Origin: Candidatus Aquidulcis sp.
Lineage (GTDB): Bacteria; Chloroflexota; Anaerolineae; UBA4142
Assembly: GCA_020723345.1 (NCBI GenBank)
Contig: DYJA01000029.1
Coordinates: 1 to 64,000, forward strand
Direction: 5' to 3'
Length of the DNA: 64,000 bases
How positions within the stretch are numbered: position 1 is the first letter of the stretch; each line of letters opens with the position of its first letter. Made by a program: the position numbers and the translations under genes. Of this stretch, positions 16,153 through 45,775 are shown piece by piece. The notes beneath the pieces were generated by a model, which searched no databases, had not been told where the DNA came from, and saw only the letters and a program-made list of their open reading frames with translations.

Positions 16153-17670
16153 TCACATCAATTGACGTCGCTCGGCGATGTGTTCTGCCGGGGTGCCAAC
16201 TTGTTCGAGCCAGTTCACGTAGCGGCGATGAATTTCACCGGCGAGCGCTTGGTTCTCTTTCAACACATCCTTCTCTTCTCCGGGATCTGTTGGCAGATGA
16301 TAGAGCGCGGGCGTGATCGGCACACACGCCAAATCGGGATTCAAAAGTTTGGCGCGGGCGAGTTTCCCTTCCGACGTTGGTTTAGCATAATTTCCGGAAT
16401 AATGCAAACACCAACCGTCTTCTGTTACGATGGCTGACTTTGCCATGACCGGCGTATGGCGAATCAGCGTGTTGGAGCAAACGACGAGATCGCGCAGCCG
16501 CGTGGTTTCATCGCGCAAGAGCGGCATCAGCGATTTGCCGTGAATCGCATCTGGCTTGAATTGCCAATCCTTGGTGTCAAACACGCCGCACTGGAGCGCT
16601 TGGATCTTCTCAGACCCGCTAATTGTCTCCGTGGTCACTAGACCTGCCATCTCTAGCATCGTCGGCATCAAATCCGGCGCTTGAACCAGGGCGGGGATCG
16701 TTTTTCTTTGGGTTTGTCCCGGCAAGCGAATCATCAAGGGCGTGCGCCGGATCGGATCATACAACCGCGCTGCCTCGTACACCATACTGCCGTCGATCTC
16801 TTGAATCACCGATTTGCCCACCAGGCCATGCTCGCCAAACAAAAAACCGTGATCGCTCGCAAAGATCACCGCCGTATCTTCCGCCATTCCCAGTTCGTCG
16901 AGTTTGTCGAGCAAGACGCCGAACCAGTGATCGACCATCGTCGCTTCGGCGCGATAAAGCGCATACATGTGTTGCACTTCGCGCTCGGTCGCGAATTTCT
17001 TCCAATAACCGTACACCGGATAGATGATCTCGTCGCCGAAATAATCGGGATCGTACATTTCGACATAGTGGCGGGGCGGATCCCAGGGTTCGTGTGGATC
17101 GAAGGTGTCAACCCAAAGCAGGAATTGGTCCTGATCCTGATTCTGTTCGAGCCAATCACATGCCGCTTTGACCGTGCGCGGTGTGAATCGATCTTCTTCC
17201 GATTTCCACCACGCCGAGTTACGCAAGTAGCGTTTGGCAAAATTGGGATTCCGGATTTTCTTTTCGTCGGCGGGCCATTTGACGTCCTTGGGCGCAGTCT
17301 TCCAAGCATCGGTCTCTTGTCCGCGCAGCCATTCCCAACCGGAAAAATCGCGGCAATAGTTGAATCCCGCGCCCATCAAGTGCGGCGTATCCGCCATCAA
17401 TTGCGTCACAAAGCCGGAAGCCGTGAGCAGTTGCGGCAAGGTGATCGCGTCGGCAGGCAAGGGCGACCATTCATGCTTGGTGAAACTGAAACATCCGGTC
17501 AGGAGGTCCAGACGATTGGGTACTGTGGGAAATGAACCCAGGTACGCATTGTTGAACACATTCGCCTGCGCGGAAAACTTGTCGAGTCGGGGCGTACGCG
17601 CGCGAGGGGTTCCGTAGCAAGATAAATTGTCGTACCGAAAACTGTCTGACATGAAAAAGACGATGTTCAT
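16153..17670 (-). CDS. Sulfatase-fold hydrolase with Thr at the nucleophile position (type T, copy 1)
   Basis: A 505-residue alkaline-phosphatase-superfamily protein without signal peptide. The normal sulfatase motif C/S-x-P-x-R is replaced by TVPNR: Thr49 occupies the formylglycine position and Arg53 is kept. D9 in MSDSFR and the SDHGFLFGEHG block supply metal ligands. The DNA at this site (ACA codon on the minus strand) is unambiguous. Thr cannot be converted to formylglycine by known maturases, so the enzyme may be a Thr-nucleophile phospho-ester hydrolase, an unusual sulfatase or a transferase. It is the first gene of the leftward LacI-linked operon. The closest relative in the window is at 38119-39642. 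Confidence 0.85.
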   Translation of the reverse strand: MNIVFFMSDSFRYDNLSCYGTPRARTPRLDKFSAQANVFNNAYLGSFPTVPNRLDLLTGCFSFTKHEWSPLPADAITLPQLLTASGFVTQLMADTPHLMGAGFNYCRDFSGWEWLRGQETDAWKTAPKDVKWPADEKKIRNPNFAKRYLRNSAWWKSEEDRFTPRTVKAACDWLEQNQDQDQFLLWVDTFDPHEPWDPPRHYVEMYDPDYFGDEIIYPVYGYWKKFATEREVQHMYALYRAEATMVDHWFGVLLDKLDELGMAEDTAVIFASDHGFLFGEHGLVGKSVIQEIDGSMVYEAARLYDPIRRTPLMIRLPGQTQRKTIPALVQAPDLMPTMLEMAGLVTTETISGSEKIQALQCGVFDTKDWQFKPDAIHGKSLMPLLRDETTRLRDLVVCSNTLIRHTPVMAKSAIVTEDGWCLHYSGNYAKPTSEGKLARAKLLNPDLACVPITPALYHLPTDPGEEKDVLKENQALAGEIHRRYVNWLEQVGTPAEHIAERRQLM

Positions 17671-33290: not shown

Positions 33291-34091
33291 ATGGAAATTA
33301 TTGGCGAAAAAATCAACGGTACGCGAACCCAGGTCAAGCAAGCCATTGCCGAACGCAATGCCGAATTCATTCAAAACCTGGCGCGCAAGCAAGTCGAGGG
33401 CGGCGCGCACTGGCTCGATATCAACGCAGGCACCGTGCCCGAGCGCGAGCCGGACGATTTGGTCTGGCTCGTCAATCTCGTGCAGGACGTAGTCGAGGTG
33501 CCGCTCTGCTTGGACAGCGCGAATCCCAACGCGTTGCGCGTCGCGATAAAGCATGTCAGAAAAACGCCGATGATCAATTCCATCAGTGGTGAAACGAATC
33601 GTTTGAACGGCATCCTGCCGATCGTCGCCGAGTTCGGCTGCGAAGTGATCGTGCTGTGCATGGACGACAAAGGCGTTCCGGCGTCGGTGGACGCGCGGCT
33701 CGACGTGATCCACCAAGTGTTTATGGAAACGCGCCGCGCCGGTGTGCCTGATGAAAGAATATACGTGGACCCGTTAGTGCTGACCATCGCGACAAACACC
33801 GAGGCGGGACGCATCACCTTCGACACGATGCGCGCCATCCGCACTCAATTCCCTCAAGCGCACATTTCCTGCGGCTTGAGTAACGTGTCGTTCGGTTTGC
33901 CTGTCCGCGCATTGATCAATCGAACGTTCTTGGTGCTGGCGTTAAATGCGGGCATGGACACTGCCATCATTGACCCGAATGATCGCGAGTTGCAGGCAGC
34001 GATGCGCGCCGCCGATTTGTTGCTGGGGCGCGATAAACATTGTTTGAATTACACGCGCGCGTATCGCGCGGGTCTATTGGAAAAGAAATAG
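33291..34091 (+). CDS. Methyltetrahydrofolate:corrinoid methyltransferase (pterin-binding domain)
   Basis: A 266-residue TIM-barrel protein of the pterin-binding family (AcsE/MtgA/MtrH-like). EIIGEKINGTR opens the barrel, ARKQVEGGAHWLDINAG and PLCLDSANP give the pterin-site Asp residues, and TPMINSISGET is typical of methyltetrahydrofolate:corrinoid enzymes. It moves a methyl group between the corrinoid protein encoded next and tetrahydrofolate (the MT2 role). GAAGGA is the ribosome site. The three-gene set lets the cell use methyl groups from an O-, N- or S-methylated substrate. Confidence 0.88.
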   Translation: MEIIGEKINGTRTQVKQAIAERNAEFIQNLARKQVEGGAHWLDINAGTVPEREPDDLVWLVNLVQDVVEVPLCLDSANPNALRVAIKHVRKTPMINSISGETNRLNGILPIVAEFGCEVIVLCMDDKGVPASVDARLDVIHQVFMETRRAGVPDERIYVDPLVLTIATNTEAGRITFDTMRAIRTQFPQAHISCGLSNVSFGLPVRALINRTFLVLALNAGMDTAIIDPNDRELQAAMRAADLLLGRDKHCLNYTRAYRAGLLEKK

Positions 34092-34118
34092 ACACAGCAA
34101 TTCTTTCAGAGGAAGGGT

Positions 34119-34754
34119 ATGTCAGAAGAACTGATTTACGCCATAGCCGACTTGCAAGAAGAAAATGCGCTTGCGCTCACCAGGCAATTGCTGGCGAGCG
34201 GGACCGACCCCTTGACAATTCTCAACGACTGCCGCGCGGCCATGGAGATCGTGGGCAAGCGGTTTGCGGCGGGAGAATACTTTATCCCGGAATTGATCCT
34301 CGCCGGCGAGATGCTCAAGTCCATTTCCGCCGAGGTCAAGCCGTGCATCAAGCAGGCAGCGGTGGCGGGCAAGAAGGGCAAGGTGCTCATCGGCACGGTC
34401 AAGGGCGATATCCATGACCTCGGCAAGGACATTGTCGTGTTTATGCTGGACGTGAATGGTTTCGAGGTCAAAGACCTCGGCGTCGACGTTCCGGTGCAGA
34501 CGTTTGTTGATAGCATCAAGAGCTTTCAACCAGATGTTGTGGGACTCTCCGGCCTCTTGACGATCGCCTACACATCGATGAAAGAGACGGTTGACGCGAT
34601 CGCCGCGGCTGGGCTGAGGGATAACGTCAAGATCATGATCGGCGGCGGCACGGTGGACGATCAGGTTCGCCGGTTTGCCGGGGCGGATGCGTTTGGCAAA
34701 GATGCCATGGCGGCGGTCGCGCTAGCTCGCCAATGGACAAATGGCGGTATGTAA
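34119..34754 (+). CDS. Corrinoid (B12-binding) methyl-carrier protein
   Basis: A 211-residue two-domain protein: a helical cap domain (1-85) and a Rossmann-like B12 domain (86-211). The lower-ligand motif is DIHDLG with H99, followed by the conserved GLSGLLT and GGGTVDD blocks. It shuttles methyl groups between an MT1 enzyme (probably the UroD-family protein downstream) and the pterin enzyme upstream. The start follows AGAGGAAGGG. A corrinoid-reactivating ATPase (RACo/RamA type) is not in the window. Confidence 0.92.
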   Translation: MSEELIYAIADLQEENALALTRQLLASGTDPLTILNDCRAAMEIVGKRFAAGEYFIPELILAGEMLKSISAEVKPCIKQAAVAGKKGKVLIGTVKGDIHDLGKDIVVFMLDVNGFEVKDLGVDVPVQTFVDSIKSFQPDVVGLSGLLTIAYTSMKETVDAIAAAGLRDNVKIMIGGGTVDDQVRRFAGADAFGKDAMAAVALARQWTNGGM

Positions 34755-34755
34755 A

Positions 34756-36003
34756 ATGTCTCAGTCACCCGAACAATTGCTTGCCGAGCGCAAGCAGCGT
34801 CTGCTCGATACCTATGCCATGAAACAACCGGACCGCGTTCCGATTTCGATCACGCTCAATTACATGCTGGCGCGGCTGGGTGGAATTACCTGCCAGGAAT
34901 TGGAAACCAATCCGGACAAGGCGCAGGAACTGCTCGAAAAGTGGGCGTTGCATTTCCAGCCCGATCAAATCGGGGGCGTCGGTTTGTTCGTTTCGCCACC
35001 CAGTGTCATCCTCGGCGATCGGCAAACCAAATGGCCCGGCTTTGGTTTGCCGCCGGAGCAACCTTTTCAGTTCGTCGAAGGCGAGTATATGAAGGCGGAG
35101 GAGTACGACGAGTTTATCGAAGACCCCACCAACTTTACGTTGCGCAAGTTCATGCCCCGCGCGTTCAAGGAATTGGAGGGCTTCACCGACTTGCCCCGTT
35201 TTCCCATTGTGTTGCTCGGCTATGCTGGTCTCAACTTCCTCAGCCGTCTCAATATGCCCTCCGTGAAAGCAAGTCTGGAGGCAGTGGAGAAAATGCTGCA
35301 GTGGTACGCGGACAACGCGGCGCGGGCGCGAGCGAATGCCCAACGGATGATGGCGCTTGGTTTCCCAGTCGGCATTGGCGGCGGTCCGTTGATCATGGCG
35401 CCATTTGATTTTATTTCCGATACCTTGCGCGGGATGCGCGGAATTTTTCTCGACATCTATCGCCGCCCCGACAAGGTTCTAGCCGCCGAAGAAAAAGCGC
35501 GGCACACCTGTGCGGATGCCGCGATCCAAGCCGCGCGCACCTCCGGTGCAAAGTATGTGCGGATCCCGTTGCATCGCGGTTCCGACGGTTTCATGTCCAT
35601 CGAACAATTCAAGACTTTTTACTGGCCCCAACTCAAGGGCTTGATGCTAGACTTGGTGGATGCGGGGCTAACTCCAATCCCATTCTACGAAGGCATCTGG
35701 GACGAACGGCTGGAATATTTGCGCGAGTTGCCAAAGGGCAAGACCGCCGGGCAATGGCAAAGCAGCAATATGTTCAAGGTGAAAGAAATCCTGGGAGATG
35801 TGATGCCGCACTTTGGCGGTTTCCCCGTCTCGCTGTTGCAAGGTGGCACCCCGGATCAAGTCCGCGCCTACACCAAGAAGATGTGCGAAAGCGTAGGCAA
35901 AGGCGGGGGATTCATTATGGGGACGAATACCGCGATGGACGAATGTAACGCCGAGCTCGTCAAGGTTTGGATCGACGCGACTAAAGAGTACGGCGTGTAC
36001 TAA
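34756..36003 (+). CDS. UroD-family methyltransferase (probable MT1 of the corrinoid system)
   Basis: A 415-residue uroporphyrinogen-decarboxylase-family protein. In corrinoid operons such proteins transfer a methyl group from the substrate to Co(I)-corrinoid (MtaA, MtbA and O-demethylase MT1 types). It starts one base after the corrinoid-protein stop; an in-frame ATG at 34741 is an alternative. The order MT2-corrinoid-MT1 supports the assignment. The methyl donor is unknown: methoxylated sugars or aromatics and betaine-like compounds are candidates. A decayed family member lies at 4183-4395. Confidence 0.82.
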   Translation: MSQSPEQLLAERKQRLLDTYAMKQPDRVPISITLNYMLARLGGITCQELETNPDKAQELLEKWALHFQPDQIGGVGLFVSPPSVILGDRQTKWPGFGLPPEQPFQFVEGEYMKAEEYDEFIEDPTNFTLRKFMPRAFKELEGFTDLPRFPIVLLGYAGLNFLSRLNMPSVKASLEAVEKMLQWYADNAARARANAQRMMALGFPVGIGGGPLIMAPFDFISDTLRGMRGIFLDIYRRPDKVLAAEEKARHTCADAAIQAARTSGAKYVRIPLHRGSDGFMSIEQFKTFYWPQLKGLMLDLVDAGLTPIPFYEGIWDERLEYLRELPKGKTAGQWQSSNMFKVKEILGDVMPHFGGFPVSLLQGGTPDQVRAYTKKMCESVGKGGGFIMGTNTAMDECNAELVKVWIDATKEYGVY

Positions 36004-36340: not shown

Positions 36341-37993
36341 ATGAGTGACAAGGCAATTTCACGACGTGAGTTCTTGCGACTCTCTGCCACGCTAGCGGCA
36401 GGCGGTGTCTTGGCGGCATGTGCGCCAGCGACAACAGCGCCAACCGCCGCGCCGACCAAAGCCGCCGCGACGGCAGCGCCAGCAACAACCGCTGCCGCGA
36501 CGACAGCGCCGGCAACTTCTGCGCCAACCGCTGCGGCAGCCGCGTGTGCCAAAGGAGACATTTGCATCCGGACGACCACGGTCAAACTGACCACAGCCCC
36601 GGTGACGTTCCGTTGGCTGGACACCGGCGAAGTCAAAGCCGAATTCTGGAAAAAGTTCTTTGCGCTTTATGAGCAAGCCCATCCCAATTTCAAGTGGACC
36701 TACGATGGTTTGGGCTGGAACGAGATTGCCAAGATTGTCCCATTGGGTATTCAGAATGGGAACTTGCACGACGTATTTAGCATTCCTCTCGGCATCTCGT
36801 CAGCCCAAGCGCTCGCAGAAGGATGGATTCGCCCGCTGGATGACCAGATTCCGGACTTGGAAAAAATCAAGGCGGCTTTTCCACCAATGTCGTTCGTTGA
36901 AGGCATCAATGTCTTCAATGGGAAGACTTATTCATTGCCCACCGGCACGAACATGCGCACGACCGATGCGTTGCTGTTCAATCGAGACTATATGGAGAAA
37001 GCCGGTTATGATCCGGTTGCCAAGCCATTTTCTTGGGATGACTTTCGAGCCGCCGCAAAGAAGATCACCGAGCAAGGGGCAGGCAAATACTTTGGCTTGA
37101 TCCAAGAGGGGGCTCAACTTCCCCGGTGGGGCATGATGGTCGGCACCCTATCCCGTATGTCCGGTGGGGGCTCGTACATTCAAACATCCGGTACCAATGG
37201 GTACCTTAATTTGCGCAAGGGCGAGTACATCTTTACCGACGATACGTACATTGCCGCGATCGAGTTGTTGCTTGCGCTAAAAGCGGATGGCAGCGTTTTC
37301 CCGGGAGGAATGGCAATGAACGCGCTCCAAGCGCGCGCCCAATTCGGCAATGGTGCCGCCGGCATGATCCTGCAAGGACTGTGGTGTCTCGATTCTTGGA
37401 AAAAGGATAACAAAAATCTCAGGTACGGAGTGGCGCTCACGCCGACCATCAAGGGTGGCGGCACCTATTCGCCTCAGCACGCCGCGGCGGGTGGTAACAA
37501 CGAGATGTGGGTTTACGCCAAGACCAAGTATCCCGACGTCGCTGCCGACATCCTGTATCATCGCAGCACCTTGGAAGGTCAATATGCGTGGAACAAGATC
37601 GCCGGCGTAGGCAATCCCGCGATCTTTCCGGAAGCGGTGGAGACGGCGTCCACCGATCCCATCGACGTCAATGGGCTGAAGCTGATGTTCAGTCAGTTCC
37701 GCTTGGGTCCGACGCCTGCCGTGCGGAATGCGGATGCTGCCAAGGTAGACGTGGAATTCAAAACCATCACGCCGAGCGTGGAGCAAGTGATTCAGGGCTT
37801 GATGTCGGGTCAGGTCACCGGCGTCAAGCAAGCGATGCAAGGCGTCAAGGATGCGTACGAAAAAGAACTCGACCGCGCGATCAAAGCGGCGCAAGCCAAA
37901 GGCGCAAAGGTGTCCCGCGACGATTACGTCTTTTCGAACTGGGATGTGAACAAGGATTACGTCGAAGCGGACTACAAGGCGGCGAAGAAATAA
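36341..37993 (+). CDS. Sugar ABC transporter substrate-binding protein, Tat-type lipoprotein
   Basis: A 550-residue extracellular solute-binding protein (SBP family 1). The N-terminus has a twin-arginine motif SRREFLRLS, a hydrophobic stretch and lipobox LAAC, so it is likely exported folded and lipid-anchored. An Ala/Thr/Pro linker and a domain starting near VTFRWLDTGEVKAEFW follow. A MalFG-type permease pair lies downstream at 39743-41703, with a sulfatase-fold gene inserted between. It should bind an oligosaccharide. Confidence 0.88.
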   Translation: MSDKAISRREFLRLSATLAAGGVLAACAPATTAPTAAPTKAAATAAPATTAAATTAPATSAPTAAAAACAKGDICIRTTTVKLTTAPVTFRWLDTGEVKAEFWKKFFALYEQAHPNFKWTYDGLGWNEIAKIVPLGIQNGNLHDVFSIPLGISSAQALAEGWIRPLDDQIPDLEKIKAAFPPMSFVEGINVFNGKTYSLPTGTNMRTTDALLFNRDYMEKAGYDPVAKPFSWDDFRAAAKKITEQGAGKYFGLIQEGAQLPRWGMMVGTLSRMSGGGSYIQTSGTNGYLNLRKGEYIFTDDTYIAAIELLLALKADGSVFPGGMAMNALQARAQFGNGAAGMILQGLWCLDSWKKDNKNLRYGVALTPTIKGGGTYSPQHAAAGGNNEMWVYAKTKYPDVAADILYHRSTLEGQYAWNKIAGVGNPAIFPEAVETASTDPIDVNGLKLMFSQFRLGPTPAVRNADAAKVDVEFKTITPSVEQVIQGLMSGQVTGVKQAMQGVKDAYEKELDRAIKAAQAKGAKVSRDDYVFSNWDVNKDYVEADYKAAKK

Positions 37994-38118: not shown

Positions 38119-39642
38119 ATGAATATCGTGTTTGTCATGTCGGATACATTCCGTCGAGATAATCTGAATTGTTATGGTGCATCGCGCGCCAAAACGCCGC
38201 GATTGGATCAACTGGCGAGCCAATCGTTCATCTTTGATAATGCCGCGGTGGGGTCTTTCCCCACACTTCCCAATCGCACAGACATCATGAGTGGGCGTTT
38301 TAGTTTTATTGACAGCCAATGGGGTCCGCTCTCCCGGCAGACGATCACCCTGCAACAGATTTTATCGGCATCGGGTATCACGACGATGTTGATTGCCGAC
38401 AACCCACACTTGGTTGAAGATGGCAACAACTATTGTCGCGGATTCAACGGCTGGGATTGGATTCGCGGACAGGAAAGCGATTTGTGGTACACCTCGCCCA
38501 AGAACCCTCACATGCCGAATGATCAAGGCAAGAACAAGGGGCGCAATGCCGTTCTGGAAAATATCCTCCGCAATTCGAGTTGGTGGAAATGCGAGGAGGA
38601 TCGTCACGCGCCGCGCTCGATTCAGTCGGCGTGTCGCTGGCTGGAATCAAATCAAGATCAAGACAAGTTCTTCCTCTGGATCGATCTCTTCGATCCCCAC
38701 GAACCCTGGGACGCGCCCAAGCATTATCTCGATCTCTATGAAAAAGAATATCACGGCGCTGAACTGCTTTACCCACATTATGGCTTTTGGAAAGAATTTT
38801 TAACTGCCGAAGAAATCCAGCATTGCCGCAATCTCTATCTCGCCGAAGTGAGCATGGTGGATCACTGGGTTGGCGTGCTCCTCGACAAGTTGGACGAGTT
38901 GGGTCTCACCGAAGATACCGCGGTGATTTTTACGAGCGACCACGGCTTTTTGCTCGGCGAAAAGGATTTCATTGGCAAAGCGCGCCACATCCCAAAACCC
39001 GACGGGAGTATGCAGATCGAAGCGCAGCGCCAGTGGAACGATATTCGTCGTGTGCCATTGCTCGTTCGCCTGCCCGGTCAAGTCGAGAGTAAAACGGTCC
39101 CCGCACTCGTTCAATCGCCGGACCTCATGCCGACGATTCTTGAAATGGCGGGACTCGTCAGCACGCAAGGGTTCGGCAGTGACGCCAAGATCCAAGCACA
39201 CCAGTGTGGCACATTTGTCAATGTGCGATGGACTTTTGACCCGGCGACCATCCACGGCCGATCGCTGATGCCAATCTTGCGCGGCGAAACTGCGCGTCAT
39301 CGCGACATCACCGTTAGTTCTCACACGCTGCTGCAACATACTCCCTACTATGCCCGGTGCGCCATCGCCACCGAAGACGGCTGGGTGCTACACTATTCCG
39401 GCTGCTATGATCTTTCTTCGGTCCAGGGCAAGATCCGCCACGCGTCTGTGGTGGGGAGCAATGAATCGCGCGTCCCCATCGCGCCCGCGCTCTACAACAT
39501 CAACACGGATCCGAACGAAGAACGCGATGTGATCGAGAGCAATGAACCGCTCGCGCGCGAGATTCACCAACGCTACGTGCGATTCCTGGAAGAGATCAAA
39601 ACGCCCGAAGAAAATCTCGCCGGAAGACGGATGCTGCGGTAA
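38119..39642 (+). CDS. Sulfatase-fold hydrolase with Thr at the nucleophile position (type T, copy 2)
   Basis: A 507-residue paralogue of the protein at 16153, alignable over the full length (shared SFPT-x-PNR, RGQE, FDPHEPWD, VQ-PDLMPT-LEMAGLV). Thr49 stands at the formylglycine position (TLPNR) and R53 is kept; the codon is ACA. D9 and SDHGFLLGEK provide metal ligands. No signal peptide. It is placed inside a sugar ABC transporter operon, between the binding protein and permeases, so its substrate probably enters by that transporter. Confidence 0.85.
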   Translation: MNIVFVMSDTFRRDNLNCYGASRAKTPRLDQLASQSFIFDNAAVGSFPTLPNRTDIMSGRFSFIDSQWGPLSRQTITLQQILSASGITTMLIADNPHLVEDGNNYCRGFNGWDWIRGQESDLWYTSPKNPHMPNDQGKNKGRNAVLENILRNSSWWKCEEDRHAPRSIQSACRWLESNQDQDKFFLWIDLFDPHEPWDAPKHYLDLYEKEYHGAELLYPHYGFWKEFLTAEEIQHCRNLYLAEVSMVDHWVGVLLDKLDELGLTEDTAVIFTSDHGFLLGEKDFIGKARHIPKPDGSMQIEAQRQWNDIRRVPLLVRLPGQVESKTVPALVQSPDLMPTILEMAGLVSTQGFGSDAKIQAHQCGTFVNVRWTFDPATIHGRSLMPILRGETARHRDITVSSHTLLQHTPYYARCAIATEDGWVLHYSGCYDLSSVQGKIRHASVVGSNESRVPIAPALYNINTDPNEERDVIESNEPLAREIHQRYVRFLEEIKTPEENLAGRRMLR

Positions 39643-39742: not shown

Positions 39743-40729
39743 ATGGAAACTGAATTGCGCGTTGCCAGAAGAATATCCGCCACCAAAGAACGGAAAAAAT
39801 CGAGTTGGGTGCGTCAACTCTGGGACGGACGTTGGTGTTATCTTTTCGCCGCGCCGGCGTTGATCCTCGCCACCATGTTCACGTTCTATCCGATTGTCTC
39901 GTCGTGGTACTTTTCACTGTTGCAATGGTCGGGGTTTACGGCGGACAAAACCTTTGTTGGACTGGCGAACTATGTCGAACTCGTTCAAGACAAGTACTTT
40001 TGGGACGCGTTCCTGCGCTCGTTTCAGTTCATGATCGTCGGCGTGCCAATCCAACTCACCCTGGCGTTGCTCGTCGCGATCGTGCTGAACGATCAGGCGC
40101 TTAAACTTTCACCGCTCTTCCGTACCATGTTCTTTTTGCCGGTCGTCACAACCGCCGCCATCGTCGGTATGTTGATGACGCTGATCCTCAGTCCATTCAA
40201 TGGTCCCGTCAACGGCGTTCTCCGCGATCTTCACTTGATCACTCAGCCGATTGATTTCTTGGGCAGCCCGCAAACGACGCTTTGGACGGTGATTGCGGTT
40301 TACATTTGGAAATGGCTGGGGCAGCCGATGATCTATTGGCTTGCCGCGCTCCAGACGATTCCGCGCGAACTGTACGAAGCCGCCAAAGTCGACGGCGCGG
40401 GCTGGTGGAGACAACTGTGGAGCATTACGCTTCCCCTTATCGTGCCGTTTGCGATTGTCATCATTCTCGTCACCGCCGTCGGCGCGCTGCACGTCTTTCC
40501 GCTGATCCAAACCTTGACCGGTGGTGGTCCATTCTTCGCGACCGAAGTCATGGAAGTTTATATCTATCGCGTCGCCTTCGGCGGCGAGACAGGCATGGGG
40601 ACACCCCGCTTGGGGTACGCGTCGGCAGCCGGTGTGTTCTTTGGCGTCGCCGTGATGGTCCTTGCGCTCATGCAGGCATGGGGCGCGCGTAGTTTGCGCG
40701 ATTTTCGCTCGGATCTGCAATCGCTGTGA
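39743..40729 (+). CDS. Sugar ABC transporter permease (MalF-like)
   Basis: A 328-residue permease with a cytoplasmic N-terminus, about six membrane spans and the EAA loop ELYEAAKVDGAGWWRQLWSITLP that contacts the ATPase. It is a CUT1-type component. The ribosome site AAAGGAGA precedes ATG 39743. It pairs with the MalG-like gene at 40816. No MalK/MsmX-type ATPase is present in the window. Confidence 0.9.
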   Translation: METELRVARRISATKERKKSSWVRQLWDGRWCYLFAAPALILATMFTFYPIVSSWYFSLLQWSGFTADKTFVGLANYVELVQDKYFWDAFLRSFQFMIVGVPIQLTLALLVAIVLNDQALKLSPLFRTMFFLPVVTTAAIVGMLMTLILSPFNGPVNGVLRDLHLITQPIDFLGSPQTTLWTVIAVYIWKWLGQPMIYWLAALQTIPRELYEAAKVDGAGWWRQLWSITLPLIVPFAIVIILVTAVGALHVFPLIQTLTGGGPFFATEVMEVYIYRVAFGGETGMGTPRLGYASAAGVFFGVAVMVLALMQAWGARSLRDFRSDLQSL

Positions 40730-40732
40730 AAA

Positions 40733-40797
40733 GTGATTCGTGATACGGGATTCGTGAAATTCAATGTCACGTATCACGCATCATGTCACTTGTCACA
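40733..40797. repeat. GTGATTCGTGATACG-type inverted repeat
   Basis: CGTGATACG on the left and CGTATCACG on the right pair, with flanking GTGAT/TCAT extensions. It is related in composition to the repeats at 37995-38100 and sits between the two permease genes. Confidence 0.6.
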
Positions 40798-40815
40798 TTT
40801 TTGGAGAAGTTTCAG

Positions 40816-41703
40816 ATGGCATTGGCTTTTTCGCGACCCCGACGCAGAACTCGGGCACAAGCATTACCCCGCCGGTGGAGCGGCTCCAGTCGGCGCGCGA
40901 TGATTGCGAGTCTCATTCTGATCCCGATCTGCCTCCTCTGGATTTATCCGTTCCTGTGGATGATTTCCGCATCGCTCAAGCCGAACGCGGAATTTTTCCA
41001 AGGCACGGGCTTGATTCCGGCATCGCCGCAATGGAGCAATTACGTGCGCGCGTGGCAGAACGCACGCATCGGCGATTATTTCTTCAATTCAGTCATCGTC
41101 ACCGTCTCGTCTGTCGCGATTGCAACGATTACCGGCGCGATGATCGGCTATGTCTTGGGACGTTTTTCGTTTCCTGGCAAAAAACTGATCATGGGTTTGT
41201 TCGTCGCGACCGTATTCATCCCGCAGGGCTATACCATCATCCCGGTTTTCGAGATCGTCAATCGGTTGGGACTCGCGGATACGTTGTGGGGCGTGATTCT
41301 CGCGGAAGCCGGAGGAGTGAATGTCCTCTCGATCTTGCTCTTCGCCGGATATTTCGCGCAACTCCCGCGCGAATTGGAAGAAGCCGCGCAAATGGATGGC
41401 GCCGGATTCTTGCGTGTGTTTTGGTCCATCATGCTGCCGCTGTCCAAGCCGGTGATCGCTTCGACGATCATCTTGCGTTTCATCACGATCTGGAACAGTT
41501 TCTTGCTGCCGCTCGTGCTGACGCTTTCGCGACCCGCCCTCCGGACACTCGCCGTCGGGATCTACGCGTTCCGGGGAGAGTATTACGTCGATTGGAGTGG
41601 CATGGCAGCGGCGGCGACGATCAGTCTTCTGCCGGTAATTATCATGTTCATCCTTTTGCAGCGCTATTTCGTCGAGGGAATTTCTGGCGCAGTCAAACAA
41701 TAA
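40816..41703 (+). CDS. Sugar ABC transporter permease (MalG-like)
   Basis: A 295-residue permease. ATG 40816 follows TTGGAGAAG. It has the N-terminal LIPICLLWIYPFLWMISASLK helix, the EAA loop ELEEAAQMDGAGFLRVFWSIMLP and a C-terminal YFVEGISGAVKQ ending typical of MalG-type proteins. It forms the channel of the CUT1 transporter with the MalF-like protein. Confidence 0.9.
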   Translation: MALAFSRPRRRTRAQALPRRWSGSSRRAMIASLILIPICLLWIYPFLWMISASLKPNAEFFQGTGLIPASPQWSNYVRAWQNARIGDYFFNSVIVTVSSVAIATITGAMIGYVLGRFSFPGKKLIMGLFVATVFIPQGYTIIPVFEIVNRLGLADTLWGVILAEAGGVNVLSILLFAGYFAQLPRELEEAAQMDGAGFLRVFWSIMLPLSKPVIASTIILRFITIWNSFLLPLVLTLSRPALRTLAVGIYAFRGEYYVDWSGMAAAATISLLPVIIMFILLQRYFVEGISGAVKQ

Positions 41704-41838: not shown

Positions 41839-44283
41839 ATGACATACAAAGATGCAACCCTGCCAATCGAGCAACGTGTGGATGATCTGTTGGCGCAAAT
41901 GACGTTGGAAGAAAAAGTGGCGCAATTGTGTTGCGTGATGCCGCGCATGTTAATCGGCGATCAAATCCCCGACCCAGGATTGATGAAAAAGTACATGGCA
42001 AATGGTCTCGGGCGGATGGCGCAATTCTCGATGGTGTTCGTCGACAACCCGGAGCAGATCGCCGAGTTTGCCAATCACATTCAAAAGTTCGTGATCGAAA
42101 ATACGCGACTCGGAATCCCGCTGATGTTCCAGAATGAAGCGTTGAACGGATTCACCGCCGTCGGCGCAACCAACTTTCCCACGCCGATCGCGCTGGCATC
42201 GACCTGGGAACCCGAGTTGGTGGAACAAGCCGCGCAAGTGATCCGTGATCAGATGCGCGCGACCGGCGTTCACATCGCGCTTGCGCCGGTGATTGACCTG
42301 GCGCAAGACCCGCGCTGGGGGCGTGGGCATGAAGCTTTTGGCGAAGACCCGTATCTTTCGTCGGCATTCGGTGCGGCGTTCGTGCGCGGCTTGCAAGGCG
42401 CTGATTTGCGAACAGGCGTTGTCTCGTGCGCCAAACATTTTCTGGGCTACAGCATTTCGCAAGGTGGCTTGAACATGGGCGCGGTACGCATCGGCGAGCG
42501 CGAATTGTACGAGACGTTTGCGCGTCCCTTCGAGACTGCGATCCATGAATGTGATTTGGCGATGGTAATGGTGACGTATTCCGAAATCGACGGTCAGCCG
42601 GTGAGCGTCAACAAAAATATTTTGCGCGATTTGTTGCGCGACAAGATGGGATTCAAAGGGTCGGCGACTTGCGATGGTCACTCGATTGAGTTGACCGTTA
42701 CAAAACAACATGTGGCGAAGAACATGCAAGAAGCCGCGATCATGGCGATTGAAGCCGGGCTGGATGGGGATACTCCTGTCTCCGAAGCGTATCACGAACT
42801 AGTTGGCGCGGTCAATCAGGGTCTGGTCGATGTGAAATATGTGGACGAAGCCGTGCGGCGCATTCTAACCATCAAGTTCCGGCTGGGGTTGTTCGAGAAT
42901 CCGTTCGTCGATGTGAACAAGGTCAGGTCGGCTTTCGAAAATCCGGCGCATCGTCAACTCTCGCGCAAATTGGCGGAGCATTCGATCACGCTGCTCAAGA
43001 ACGATGGACATTTGCTGCCGTTGAAAAACGTCAAGACGATTGCGGTGATTGGTCCCCACGCCGATAGCGTGCGCGATAGTCTGTTCGCCGGGTACACCTT
43101 CCCGGCAATGATGGAAATGATAAAGAACTTGCGCCGCGGCGGCAGAGCATCCATGCAAGGTGTGGCGGATAAAGTCATGGAGCAAGAGAACCAGAAGTCG
43201 GAGCCGTCCGAGTTTTTTGTCGCGCTGGGCGAACTCGGTGACATCAATCAATATATCGAGAAGGAATATGGCGCGGTCAGTCTGCGCGACGCAATCGCGA
43301 AACGCAAAGGTGTGGAGGTGATCTACGCCAAGGGCTGCGGCATCGCTGATCCATCCAAGGATGGATTCGCGGAAGCAGTCGCGGCAGCGCGAAAAGCAGA
43401 CGTGGTTGTGGTCGCACTCGGCGGCAGATCGGGCTGGGGCAAGGATGCCACTTGTGGTGAAGGGCGCGATGCGTCCACCATCGAATTGATGGGAGTTCAG
43501 GAGGAATTGCTCAAAGCGATTCACGCGATCGGCAAACCGGTGGTACTTGTACTTTTCGATGGGCGACCACTCGCGATTCCGTGGGCGGCAGACGCTTCGC
43601 GTATTCCAGCGATTATCTATGCCTGGTTCCCTGGTCAAGCCGGCGGCGAAGCGCTCGCGGATGTTTTGTTTGGCGAGGTCAACCCCGGCGGAAAATTGCC
43701 GGTGACGATACCGCGCAGCACTGGTCAGGTACCGCTATTCTACAATCATAAAGCAGGCAGCGGTTACCAAACAAACTACAACGAAGGCGTCGCCGCTTTC
43801 CTAGGTTACGGCTATGTCAATGAATCGAACCTGCCCTTGTACGCGTTCGGGCACGGATTGAGTTACACAAGATGTGAATTCAGCGATTTGCAGTTGAGCG
43901 CAAAGCAAGTTGACTCGTCCGGTGAAATCGCGATTGCGTGTTCGATCAAAAATGTTGGCGTTGTGGCGGGCAGTGAAGTGGTGCAACTCTACCTGCACGA
44001 TTGCGAAGCGCGCGTCACTCGCCCGGTGCAAGAACTGGTCGGGTTCAAGCGCGTCGAACTCAAACCGGGGGAGCGTTGCAGGGTGACGTTCGTCGTGAAG
44101 ATGAATCAACTTGGCTTTTACAATCACAACATGCAGTTCGTTGTCGAGCCGGGCAACATGGAAGTGATGATTGGCGCGAGTTCGGATGACATTCGCTTGC
44201 GAAGCGCGTTTGAGATCACCGGCGAAACTGTGTCGGTGCTAGGCAAACGCAGTTACCTCTCGCAAGCGCAAGTCGAGAAATAG
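41839..44283 (+). CDS. GH3 glycoside hydrolase (beta-glucosidase/xylosidase-like)
   Basis: An 814-residue three-domain GH3 enzyme: TIM barrel (about 1-350), alpha/beta sandwich (about 380-640) and a C-terminal fibronectin-III-like domain (about 690-790). The nucleophile is probably D279 in GSATCDGHSIE, a variant of the common VSDW motif. PRWGRGHEAFGEDPYL and CAKHFLGYS are standard substrate-site blocks. No signal peptide, so it should be cytoplasmic. An unusual Lys/Glu-rich stretch (about 430-480) lies within the second domain. It sits between a sugar transporter and a sulfatase-fold gene. Confidence 0.9.
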   Translation: MTYKDATLPIEQRVDDLLAQMTLEEKVAQLCCVMPRMLIGDQIPDPGLMKKYMANGLGRMAQFSMVFVDNPEQIAEFANHIQKFVIENTRLGIPLMFQNEALNGFTAVGATNFPTPIALASTWEPELVEQAAQVIRDQMRATGVHIALAPVIDLAQDPRWGRGHEAFGEDPYLSSAFGAAFVRGLQGADLRTGVVSCAKHFLGYSISQGGLNMGAVRIGERELYETFARPFETAIHECDLAMVMVTYSEIDGQPVSVNKNILRDLLRDKMGFKGSATCDGHSIELTVTKQHVAKNMQEAAIMAIEAGLDGDTPVSEAYHELVGAVNQGLVDVKYVDEAVRRILTIKFRLGLFENPFVDVNKVRSAFENPAHRQLSRKLAEHSITLLKNDGHLLPLKNVKTIAVIGPHADSVRDSLFAGYTFPAMMEMIKNLRRGGRASMQGVADKVMEQENQKSEPSEFFVALGELGDINQYIEKEYGAVSLRDAIAKRKGVEVIYAKGCGIADPSKDGFAEAVAAARKADVVVVALGGRSGWGKDATCGEGRDASTIELMGVQEELLKAIHAIGKPVVLVLFDGRPLAIPWAADASRIPAIIYAWFPGQAGGEALADVLFGEVNPGGKLPVTIPRSTGQVPLFYNHKAGSGYQTNYNEGVAAFLGYGYVNESNLPLYAFGHGLSYTRCEFSDLQLSAKQVDSSGEIAIACSIKNVGVVAGSEVVQLYLHDCEARVTRPVQELVGFKRVELKPGERCRVTFVVKMNQLGFYNHNMQFVVEPGNMEVMIGASSDDIRLRSAFEITGETVSVLGKRSYLSQAQVEK

Positions 44284-44374: not shown

Positions 44375-45775
44375 ATGAACCTGATTGTGATTATGACTGA
44401 TTCTCTACGCAAGGATCATGTTGGCGCGTACGGCAACAAGCGCGTTCGCACCCCGGGGATAGACAAATTCGCTGCCAAGAGCTTGGTGTTCGAACGCGCT
44501 TTTCCGGAAGGGTTGCCGACGATCAATGTTCGCCGTGCGCTCTTCACGGGGCGACGCTCTTTTCCCAGCTATGACTGGGCACCATGGAAGGGGGACCTCG
44601 TACCCTTCCTTGGGTGGCAGCCGCTCAGCGAGGACGATGTGACACTGACCGAAGTATTACGCGCAAATGGATATGTCTGTGGTCTAGTCGCCGATTCCTA
44701 TCACATGTTCAAGCCGCGTCAGAATTTTGCCCGCGGTTTTCATGCCTACACCTTCATTCGGGGACAAGAAACCGATCCCTGGAAGAGTGGTCCGGTGCCG
44801 GACGAACTGGTCAAAAAGTACTGCCATCCCGAGTTGGATCGCCGGCACAAAATCCGAACCTTACAACACCTTCGGAACAACCTGTGGCGGAAGACTGAAG
44901 AAGACTATTTGCCGGCTCGAGTCTTTCGCACCGCCGCCGAGTGGCTAGAGGAGAACCGGTCGTACAAGAACCTGTTTCTGTGGGTAGATTGCTTCGACCC
45001 GCACGAGCCGTGGGATTCTCCAAAGGAATATGTTGATCTGTACGACCCAGGATACACAGGGCGCGATTTCATTCTGCCCCAGTCAGGAGATTGCAGTTAC
45101 ATGTCACCGGCGGAGCTGAACCACTGCCGTGCCAACTATGCCGGCGAAGTGACGTTTGTGGACAAGTGGTTCGGCTGGTTCATGGAGCGGGTCGAAGAAC
45201 TGGGATTGATGGAGAACAGCGTGATTCTGTTCCTTGCGGATCATGGGCATCCGCTTGGAGAACACGGCATTATTTCCAAGAATCCGACGTGTCTGTATCC
45301 GGAACTGGTGGATGTTCCGTTTATGCTGCGGATTCCAGGGCGCACTCAGGAAGGGAGCCGGACGAATGTGTTGGTGCAGTTCCACGACGTAGCGCCGACA
45401 TTGCTGGATGCGCTTGGAGTGGCGTATCCGGCGGATTACACGCATAATGGGCAGAGTTTCCTAAATGCGCTTGCGCCGGGGGTGCCTTCGCCGCGCGATC
45501 ATTTTGTCTGCGGGTATCATGACAGCGCATTGGTCGAAGATGGAGAGTGGTCCTACATCTTTACCCAGGATCCATCCTCGCGCCGGCTCTTCAACATTCG
45601 TCAAGACCCAGATTGGCGCACCAATCTCTATGCGGACAAGCCAGTGGAGGTAAGGCGACTGCACTCTCTCTTGCTCGAGGTAGCCGACCCCGAGAAGTTG
45701 AAGAACAAGATTGATTTCAATCCGATTCACTTTTTTCCCCCATCCGACGCTTTGAATGCGAGGGAATTGCGGTGA
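44375..45775 (+). CDS. Sulfatase-fold hydrolase with Thr at the nucleophile position (type T, divergent copy 3)
   Basis: A 466-residue alkaline-phosphatase-superfamily protein. The active-site segment is TINVR: Thr49 (ACG codon) replaces Cys/Ser, the following Pro is Asn, and R53 is kept. VIMTDSLRKD and LFLADHGHPLGEHG carry metal ligands; FDPHEPWD is shared with the other type-T copies. It is more distant from copies 1 and 2 than they are from each other. No signal peptide. It is the last gene of the sugar-transporter/GH3 group. Confidence 0.83.
   Translation: MNLIVIMTDSLRKDHVGAYGNKRVRTPGIDKFAAKSLVFERAFPEGLPTINVRRALFTGRRSFPSYDWAPWKGDLVPFLGWQPLSEDDVTLTEVLRANGYVCGLVADSYHMFKPRQNFARGFHAYTFIRGQETDPWKSGPVPDELVKKYCHPELDRRHKIRTLQHLRNNLWRKTEEDYLPARVFRTAAEWLEENRSYKNLFLWVDCFDPHEPWDSPKEYVDLYDPGYTGRDFILPQSGDCSYMSPAELNHCRANYAGEVTFVDKWFGWFMERVEELGLMENSVILFLADHGHPLGEHGIISKNPTCLYPELVDVPFMLRIPGRTQEGSRTNVLVQFHDVAPTLLDALGVAYPADYTHNGQSFLNALAPGVPSPRDHFVCGYHDSALVEDGEWSYIFTQDPSSRRLFNIRQDPDWRTNLYADKPVEVRRLHSLLLEVADPEKLKNKIDFNPIHFFPPSDALNARELR

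Follow-up and report, generated by a model that had tools for sequence, protein, structure and literature searches.

A threonine-type sulfatase-fold protein of Candidatus Aquidulcis sp. and the altered active site of its clade

The gene at positions 44375-45775 (+) of the 64,000-nucleotide stretch of Candidatus Aquidulcis sp. DNA analysed here (the window) is an intact open reading frame (ORF) encoding a sulfatase-fold protein of 466 amino acids, which belongs to a clade spread across bacterial and archaeal phyla. Compared with sulfatases that use formylglycine (FGly), two replacements go together in this clade: Cys or Ser by Thr at the nucleophile position, and the sulfate-binding lysine of the GKxH motif (LysA) by Asp107. 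With LysA exchanged too and the remaining active-site residues strictly conserved, the site looks like a change of chemistry and not like decay. The sequence-only reading had described it as a loss of formylglycine, which is right in that the Cys/Ser is gone, but undersells the remodelling. We give about an even chance to the proposal that the protein is a cytosolic enzyme of the alkaline phosphatase superfamily that works with a single metal and an unmodified Thr49 as nucleophile, hydrolysing (or transferring the group of) a phosphodiester or phosphonate ester carried by an imported sugar.

The gene product and its active site

The 44375 protein matches the Pfam Sulfatase family (PF00884; E 2e-38; 132.9 bits against a cut-off of 25), which places it in the superfamily. 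Its top NCBIfam model, the arylsulfatase PRK13759, is matched at 156.7 bits against a cut-off of 481, and the protein is thus left without a named NCBIfam family. An AlphaFold2 model built from 34 aligned family members (pLDDT 90.6; pTM 0.91) has the sulfatase fold; by VIA-align its best PDB matches are S1 sulfatases (6hhm, Z 36.2, 2.9 Å, 386 aligned), with phosphonate monoester hydrolases (PMHs) at Z 31.5-33 (2vqr, Z 32.6) and the YejM/PbgA domain at Z 31.6. The ORF opens straight at strand 1 (residues 2-8 after Met1), with no N-terminal membrane domain, and since no extension lies ahead of that strand, the protein has no visible export signal.

The active-site signature of the protein is LPTINVRRALFTG. 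Alignment and codons place the nucleophile position in the motif TINVR (44519-44533, +), where Thr49 (ACG, 44519-44521) stands in place of the Cys or Ser that FGly S1 sulfatases present for oxidation, as the sequence-only reading had said. Asn51 (AAT, 44525-44527) at +2 departs from the C/S-x-P/A-x-R signature of these enzymes, and Arg53 at +4 is kept. Two changes go beyond Thr49 and Asn51. In the metal motif (44399-44404, +), the clade alignment pairs Asp9, a predicted metal ligand, with Ser10, which replaces the second Asp of classical sulfatases. Asp107 takes the place of the GKxH lysine: Asp107-x-x-His110 (44693-44704, +), conserved in the clade, falls on the GK-x-H motif of SpAS2 (4upl) with one residue extra. 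The leaving-group pair of FGly S1 sulfatases (HisB-LysB) is retained as His210, the putative leaving-group histidine within the aligned clade signature D205-C-F-D-P-H210-E-P-W-D214 (44987-45016, +), and its partner Lys302 (45278-45280, +). Asp289-His290 (45239-45244, +) are further predicted metal ligands.

A clade of threonine and cysteine members

Scanning 84,980 species genomes yielded 80 loci in 11 named bacterial and 4 archaeal phyla, the largest shares falling to Poribacteria (33) and Armatimonadota (16), with 4 loci lacking a phylum placement. Two of the scan loci, L059 and L060, agree in length, match and identity and come from bins labelled 'Thermoplasmata' and 'Deltaproteobacteria', so one record is probably misbinned or mislabelled. 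Together with loci from further genome searches, 241 distinct sulfatase-fold ORFs were aligned, and 150 of them fall into the clade by motif (128 Thr, 22 Cys and 0 Ser). The Thr to Cys ratio is not a natural frequency, since most sequences were retrieved with the 44375 protein or the Cys subgroup as the search query. At least two Thr members (L062, and L061 at 804) escaped the motif pattern and were counted among the 'other' ORFs.

Nine residues are invariant in all 128 Thr members, namely D9, R53, W81, D107, H210, E211, D289, H290 and K302, of which H210 and E211 were part of the selection motif; so was Ser/Thr at residue 10, likewise found in 128/128. His110 is present in 115 of the 128. The LysA place holds Asp in every Thr member and in all 22 Cys members. 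A GK-type motif, by contrast, is retained in 71 of the 80 Cys/Ser proteins that fall outside the clade; the LysA pattern flagged 3 of the 128 Thr rows, all through a later 'PGK', and one of the 11 'other' Thr rows. Residue 51 is Pro in 121 Thr members, Gln in 3, Asn in 2 and Glu in 2, the Asn carriers being the 44375 protein and L048 (Planctomycetota). Asn51 is therefore a minor variant, and the third, further altered motif proposed from the sequence does not form a class of its own: the 44375 protein belongs to a large conserved clade and is not a third lost site. The substitution for a 'usually invariant' Pro is real, but the wording was too strong, as motif Pro is also reported at 87% in sulfatases (Barbeyron et al., PMC5066984).

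At E 1e-30, a match to the 44375 protein was found in 4 of 20 genomes of the order, its own genome included, and a match was found in 66 of 400 genomes across the phylum; the distribution of this gene type is thus patchy, and the genomes most closely related to its own mainly do without it. The wide occurrence of Thr in PF00884 is already in print (PMC5066984). In the open-licence PMC literature no characterised clade member was found, nor were the clade definition, the linked LysA-to-Asp change or the Cys subgroup on the same scaffold.

Three trees bear on the history of the Thr. In a 122-row tree that excluded residues 10, 49 and 107 (58% identity clustering; 400-aa minimum), 45 Thr and 3 Cys rows form one clade (SH-aLRT 100). 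A 68-row tree built without residues 10 and 49 unites 44 Thr and 6 Cys rows (bootstrap/SH-aLRT 100/99), and a 56-row tree richer in Cys rows, which took 38 of 147 clade members, unites 30 Thr and 8 Cys rows (100/100). All three Thr proteins of the window fall into the one clade, with the 44375 branch separate from the 16153/38119 pair (in the 56-row tree the 16153 protein is represented by its sister 38119). The suggestion of an old clade is thereby supported; that of distance from the other two Thr types is borne out by the separate branch. An independent recent loss of FGly in the 44375 gene alone was rejected by this clade membership.

In all three trees the Cys rows group with FPT-type Thr proteins and are not basal (98; 100/99; 99/98). 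When all clade Thr rows were forced together, the AU test rejected the arrangement in the 68-row tree (p-AU 0.034) but did not reject it in the 56-row tree (0.187); in both, the tested group had been defined with a first tree already in view. A Cys group nested inside the Thr clade is thus suggested by the best trees and is not settled; such nesting would mean that Thr was gained a second time or that Cys was restored within the clade. A two-state model on the 56-row tree, conditional on that topology and blind to its uncertainty, assigns Thr to the clade ancestor (probability >0.999). We advance tentatively, as a possibility below even chances, a switch from a Cys/FGly nucleophile to Thr followed by a later return to Cys in the Chloroflexota 'PCMPAR' lineage, in which FGly would have been re-acquired with an adjacent anaerobic maturase; this lineage keeps Asp107 and FDPHEPF. 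If such a return is true, FGly would be a reversible addition to a phosphoesterase site built on Thr.

Outside the clade, Thr occurs in separate superfamily groups (TNPSH and THPGH types) and once within a Cys clade. The sequence-only reading had allowed that formylglycine was lost more than once; the Thr of such distant groups may fit this, and within the clade the AU values leave it undecided. The single case, L207 (G033, 629-2095), is a lone Thr (PSTTGARR) among Cys sulfatases that has also lost GKxH, apparently an independent second instance of the paired changes. Another remodelled sulfatase-fold group (L192, L196, L201, L217 and L219) has Cys in PC[LVN]P[SG]R or PCVPAR, a D-S metal motif, no GKxH, and Asp/Glu at the Lys302 place.

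Neighbouring genes and maturases

The genome assembly comprises 6.34 Mb in 132 contigs and matches PF00884 at 8 places, 7 of them strong. Six of the seven strong genes lie within this window, at 16153-52852, where position 49 is Thr in 16153, 38119 and 44375, Cys in 21007 and 28103, and Ser in 51407, so that the three active-site types stand side by side; the seventh, on another contig, has Cys. The 44375 gene ends an operon-like same-strand run (+) of a sugar ABC transporter solute-binding protein (SBP_bac_1; 36341-37993), the second Thr-type gene (FPTLPNR; 38119-39642), two ABC permeases (BPD_transp_1; 39743-40729 and 40783-41703) and a GH3 glycoside hydrolase (41839-44283) lying 91 bases upstream. 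That it closes a GH3/sugar-transport group, as read from the sequence, is correct by position; a MalT/LuxR-type regulator follows on the opposite strand. The third Thr-type gene (FPTVPNR; 16153-17670, -) encodes the sister of the 38119 protein.

Two further gene sets were seen in the window. The segment 19151-29533 is a self-contained desulfation unit, with peptide-type ABC permeases, the Cys sulfatases 21007 and 28103, a peroxiredoxin/thioredoxin-like protein (22419), an anSME maturase (23430; TIGR03942, 1.1e-149), a SulP-type anion permease (24665) and a solute-binding protein (26428). At 33291-36003, directly upstream of the sugar-transport run, pterin-binding, corrinoid and URO-D-like proteins in a row form a corrinoid methyltransferase set.

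In the vicinity of 20 Chloroflexota Thr loci, SBP_bac_1 accounts for 13 of 147 neighbour proteins and BPD_transp_1 for 6, compared with at most 1/147 and 2/147 in 20 control regions drawn mostly from the same genomes (the control list holds families with two or more members, and SBP_bac_1 is absent from it). Outside Chloroflexota the link to sugar transporters is weak, with SBP_bac_1 making up 3/144 neighbours; no family exceeds 5/144 across the 32 loci, and this neighbourhood therefore gives no substrate clue. Neighbour ORFs were chosen longest-first, so that a few are spurious; 3/147 were left out outside Chloroflexota, 8/155 in Chloroflexota and 44/191 in the controls, and in 3 of the 20 Chloroflexota loci (L303, L306 and L311) another frame overlies the Thr gene.

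Members of the Cys subgroup carry PC[MI]PAR, D-[ST], [ST]DHxH-type and FDPHEP[FWY] motifs. Among 48 genomes searched for anSME (TIGR03942) and FGE (PF03781), 14 carry a Cys-subgroup gene, and in 5 of these an anSME lies within 5 kb of it (about 70 bases in G005 and G018, 2.0 kb in G412, about 3.2 kb in G279 and 4.7 kb in G364). Among the matches listed for the five anSME genomes with Thr genes of the clade (G000, G406, G201, G252 and G294), no anSME lies within 5 kb of a clade Thr gene on the same contig, the nearest Thr gene being 16153-17670 of this window, 5.8 kb off. The counts are small, and the pattern fits FGly maturation of the Cys form and none of the Thr form.

Neither anSME nor FGE was matched at the thresholds used in 5 of the 48 genomes (G081, G105, G158, G209 and G356), and G241 has sub-cut-off anSME fragments only. 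In G081 (95% complete) all four full-length sulfatase-fold genes are Thr, and in G105 (94% complete) both are, one of them from another Thr group; each genome also has one fragment. Cys genes are nevertheless present in four of these six maturase-poor genomes (G158, G209, G241 and G356), and co-occurrence as proof of independence from maturation was therefore dropped; since the Cys-bearing G158, G209 and G356 lack maturase matches too, maturase absence serves as weak, supporting evidence. Two interrupted genes from genomes 99% complete, the PCMPAR-type L263 (G158:C2:766323-767822), broken by an in-frame TAG, and a related match split with TGA (G136:C11:118416-119884), are likely decaying copies. 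The Candidatus Aquidulcis genome has 17 FGE-sulfatase (PF03781) domain matches for only seven strong sulfatase-fold genes, so most of its FGE-like domains must serve another purpose.

Candidate chemistry and known systems

In the favoured reading of the 44375 protein as a phosphoester hydrolase, Asp9, Asp289 and His290 would bind a single divalent metal ion that activates Thr49, and Thr49 would attack at phosphorus in a phosphodiester or phosphonate monoester carried by an imported sugar. His210 and Lys302 would assist the leaving group, and the phospho-Thr49 intermediate would be hydrolysed or handed to an acceptor. We infer a preference for phosphorus over sulfur: the clade is altered at one of the two places separating sulfatases from phosphonate/phosphodiester hydrolases, and it also carries Thr where MCR-1 has its phosphorylated Thr285. 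Against a phosphoester reading, His110 (HisA) is sulfatase-like and, as aligned, mostly kept in the clade; the Cys members, too, have Asp107 and otherwise the same site, and an anSME adjoins some of them, so that loss of LysA alone does not amount to loss of FGly chemistry.

It is fairly unlikely that the protein is a true sulfatase acting without formylglycine on sulfate esters of imported sugars, with Thr49 positioning the metal or attacking slowly. Retention of Arg53, His110, His210 and Lys302 would agree with this, as would the carbohydrate sulfatases found as closest folds and the ordinary Cys-type sulfatase genes and anSME in the same window. The Asp at LysA in 128/128 Thr members is hard to reconcile with it, as in choline sulfatase Lys102 touches the sulfate and activity is undetectable in K102L, and there a C54S exchange, too, lowers kcat/KM about 4000-fold (1.19 against 4.8e3; PMC5870055). 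A cytosolic transferase, handing the phospho-Thr49 group on to a sugar or another acceptor in the manner of EptA, MCR-1 and LtaS, is quite improbable: its predicted metal and nucleophile set is the same as that of MCR-1 (PMC5216409), but the ORF opens at strand 1 with no membrane domain, the NCBIfam LtaS and PEtN-transferase models score far under cut-off (LtaS, 24.8 against 970 bits; EptA, 16 against 561), and the genes lie in uptake and catabolic surroundings, both in the window and near Chloroflexota relatives. Loss of the hallmark residue might also mark a catalytically dead relative with a binding or regulatory role; this is very improbable, since nine active-site residues besides Thr49 stay invariant in 128/128 sequences across many phyla, which decay would not have preserved. 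That an ordinary Cys sulfatase was altered by a local sequencing error or a recent mutation, the outcome that the sequence-only reading had named as its refutation, has a negligible chance and was rejected, since every base of ACG would have to change to give a Cys codon, excluding a single base error, and all nearest relatives carry Thr; nothing was found in its favour.

Automatic annotation would label clade proteins as sulfatases (the best NCBIfam match being 'arylsulfatase', under cut-off) although residues that define a sulfatase are replaced, and correct naming alters estimates of how far uncultured Chloroflexota, Poribacteria, Armatimonadota and archaea use sulfated sugars. With a Thr and a Cys form on otherwise one and the same active site, the clade is also a natural experiment on formylglycine versus a plain hydroxyl nucleophile. 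Barbeyron et al. (2016; PMC5066984) report Thr in 30 of 59 Pfam PF00884 seed sequences and advise that uncharacterised Thr proteins should not be called functional sulfatases. These proteins share with the clade the Thr in place of the catalytic Cys/Ser; the example in the available part of that paper, where the clade is not described, is the streptococcal-type TXNXE, whereas the clade has TxPxR, and the 44375 protein TxNxR.

Among characterised systems, the FGly S1 sulfatases (6hhm, S1_7; 7oz8, S1_46) share with the 44375 protein the fold, Arg53, His110, His210, Lys302 and the Asp/Asp/His metal ligands, and differ in having Cys/Ser for Thr49, Pro for Asn51, LysA for Asp107 and a second Asp for Ser10; the motif FDPHEPWD belongs to the clade. 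The PMHs and phosphodiesterases (S1_0; RlPMH 2vqr, BcPMH 2w8s) resemble it in fold (Z 32-33), in the Asp/Asp/His ligands, predicted by alignment as D9, D289 and H290, and in having lost LysA while keeping HisB and LysB. Unlike the 44375 protein with its Thr49, Asp107, His110 and Ser10, they use a formylglycine nucleophile and have Tyr at LysA, Thr/Asp at HisA (PMC5488252) and Gln for the second Asp. LtaS, EptA, MCR-1 and YejM have Thr at the nucleophile position and a metal site of an acidic residue, Asp and His. In MCR-1, Zn is held by Glu246, Thr285, Asp465 and His466, and Thr285 was found phosphorylated (PMC5216409); YejM, a Mg phosphatase, has a catalytic Thr (PMC7576196). D9, T49, D289 and H290 of the 44375 protein correspond to E246, T285, D465 and H466 of MCR-1, and what sets it apart from these membrane-domain proteins is the sulfatase-type Arg53 and the His210/Lys302 pair.
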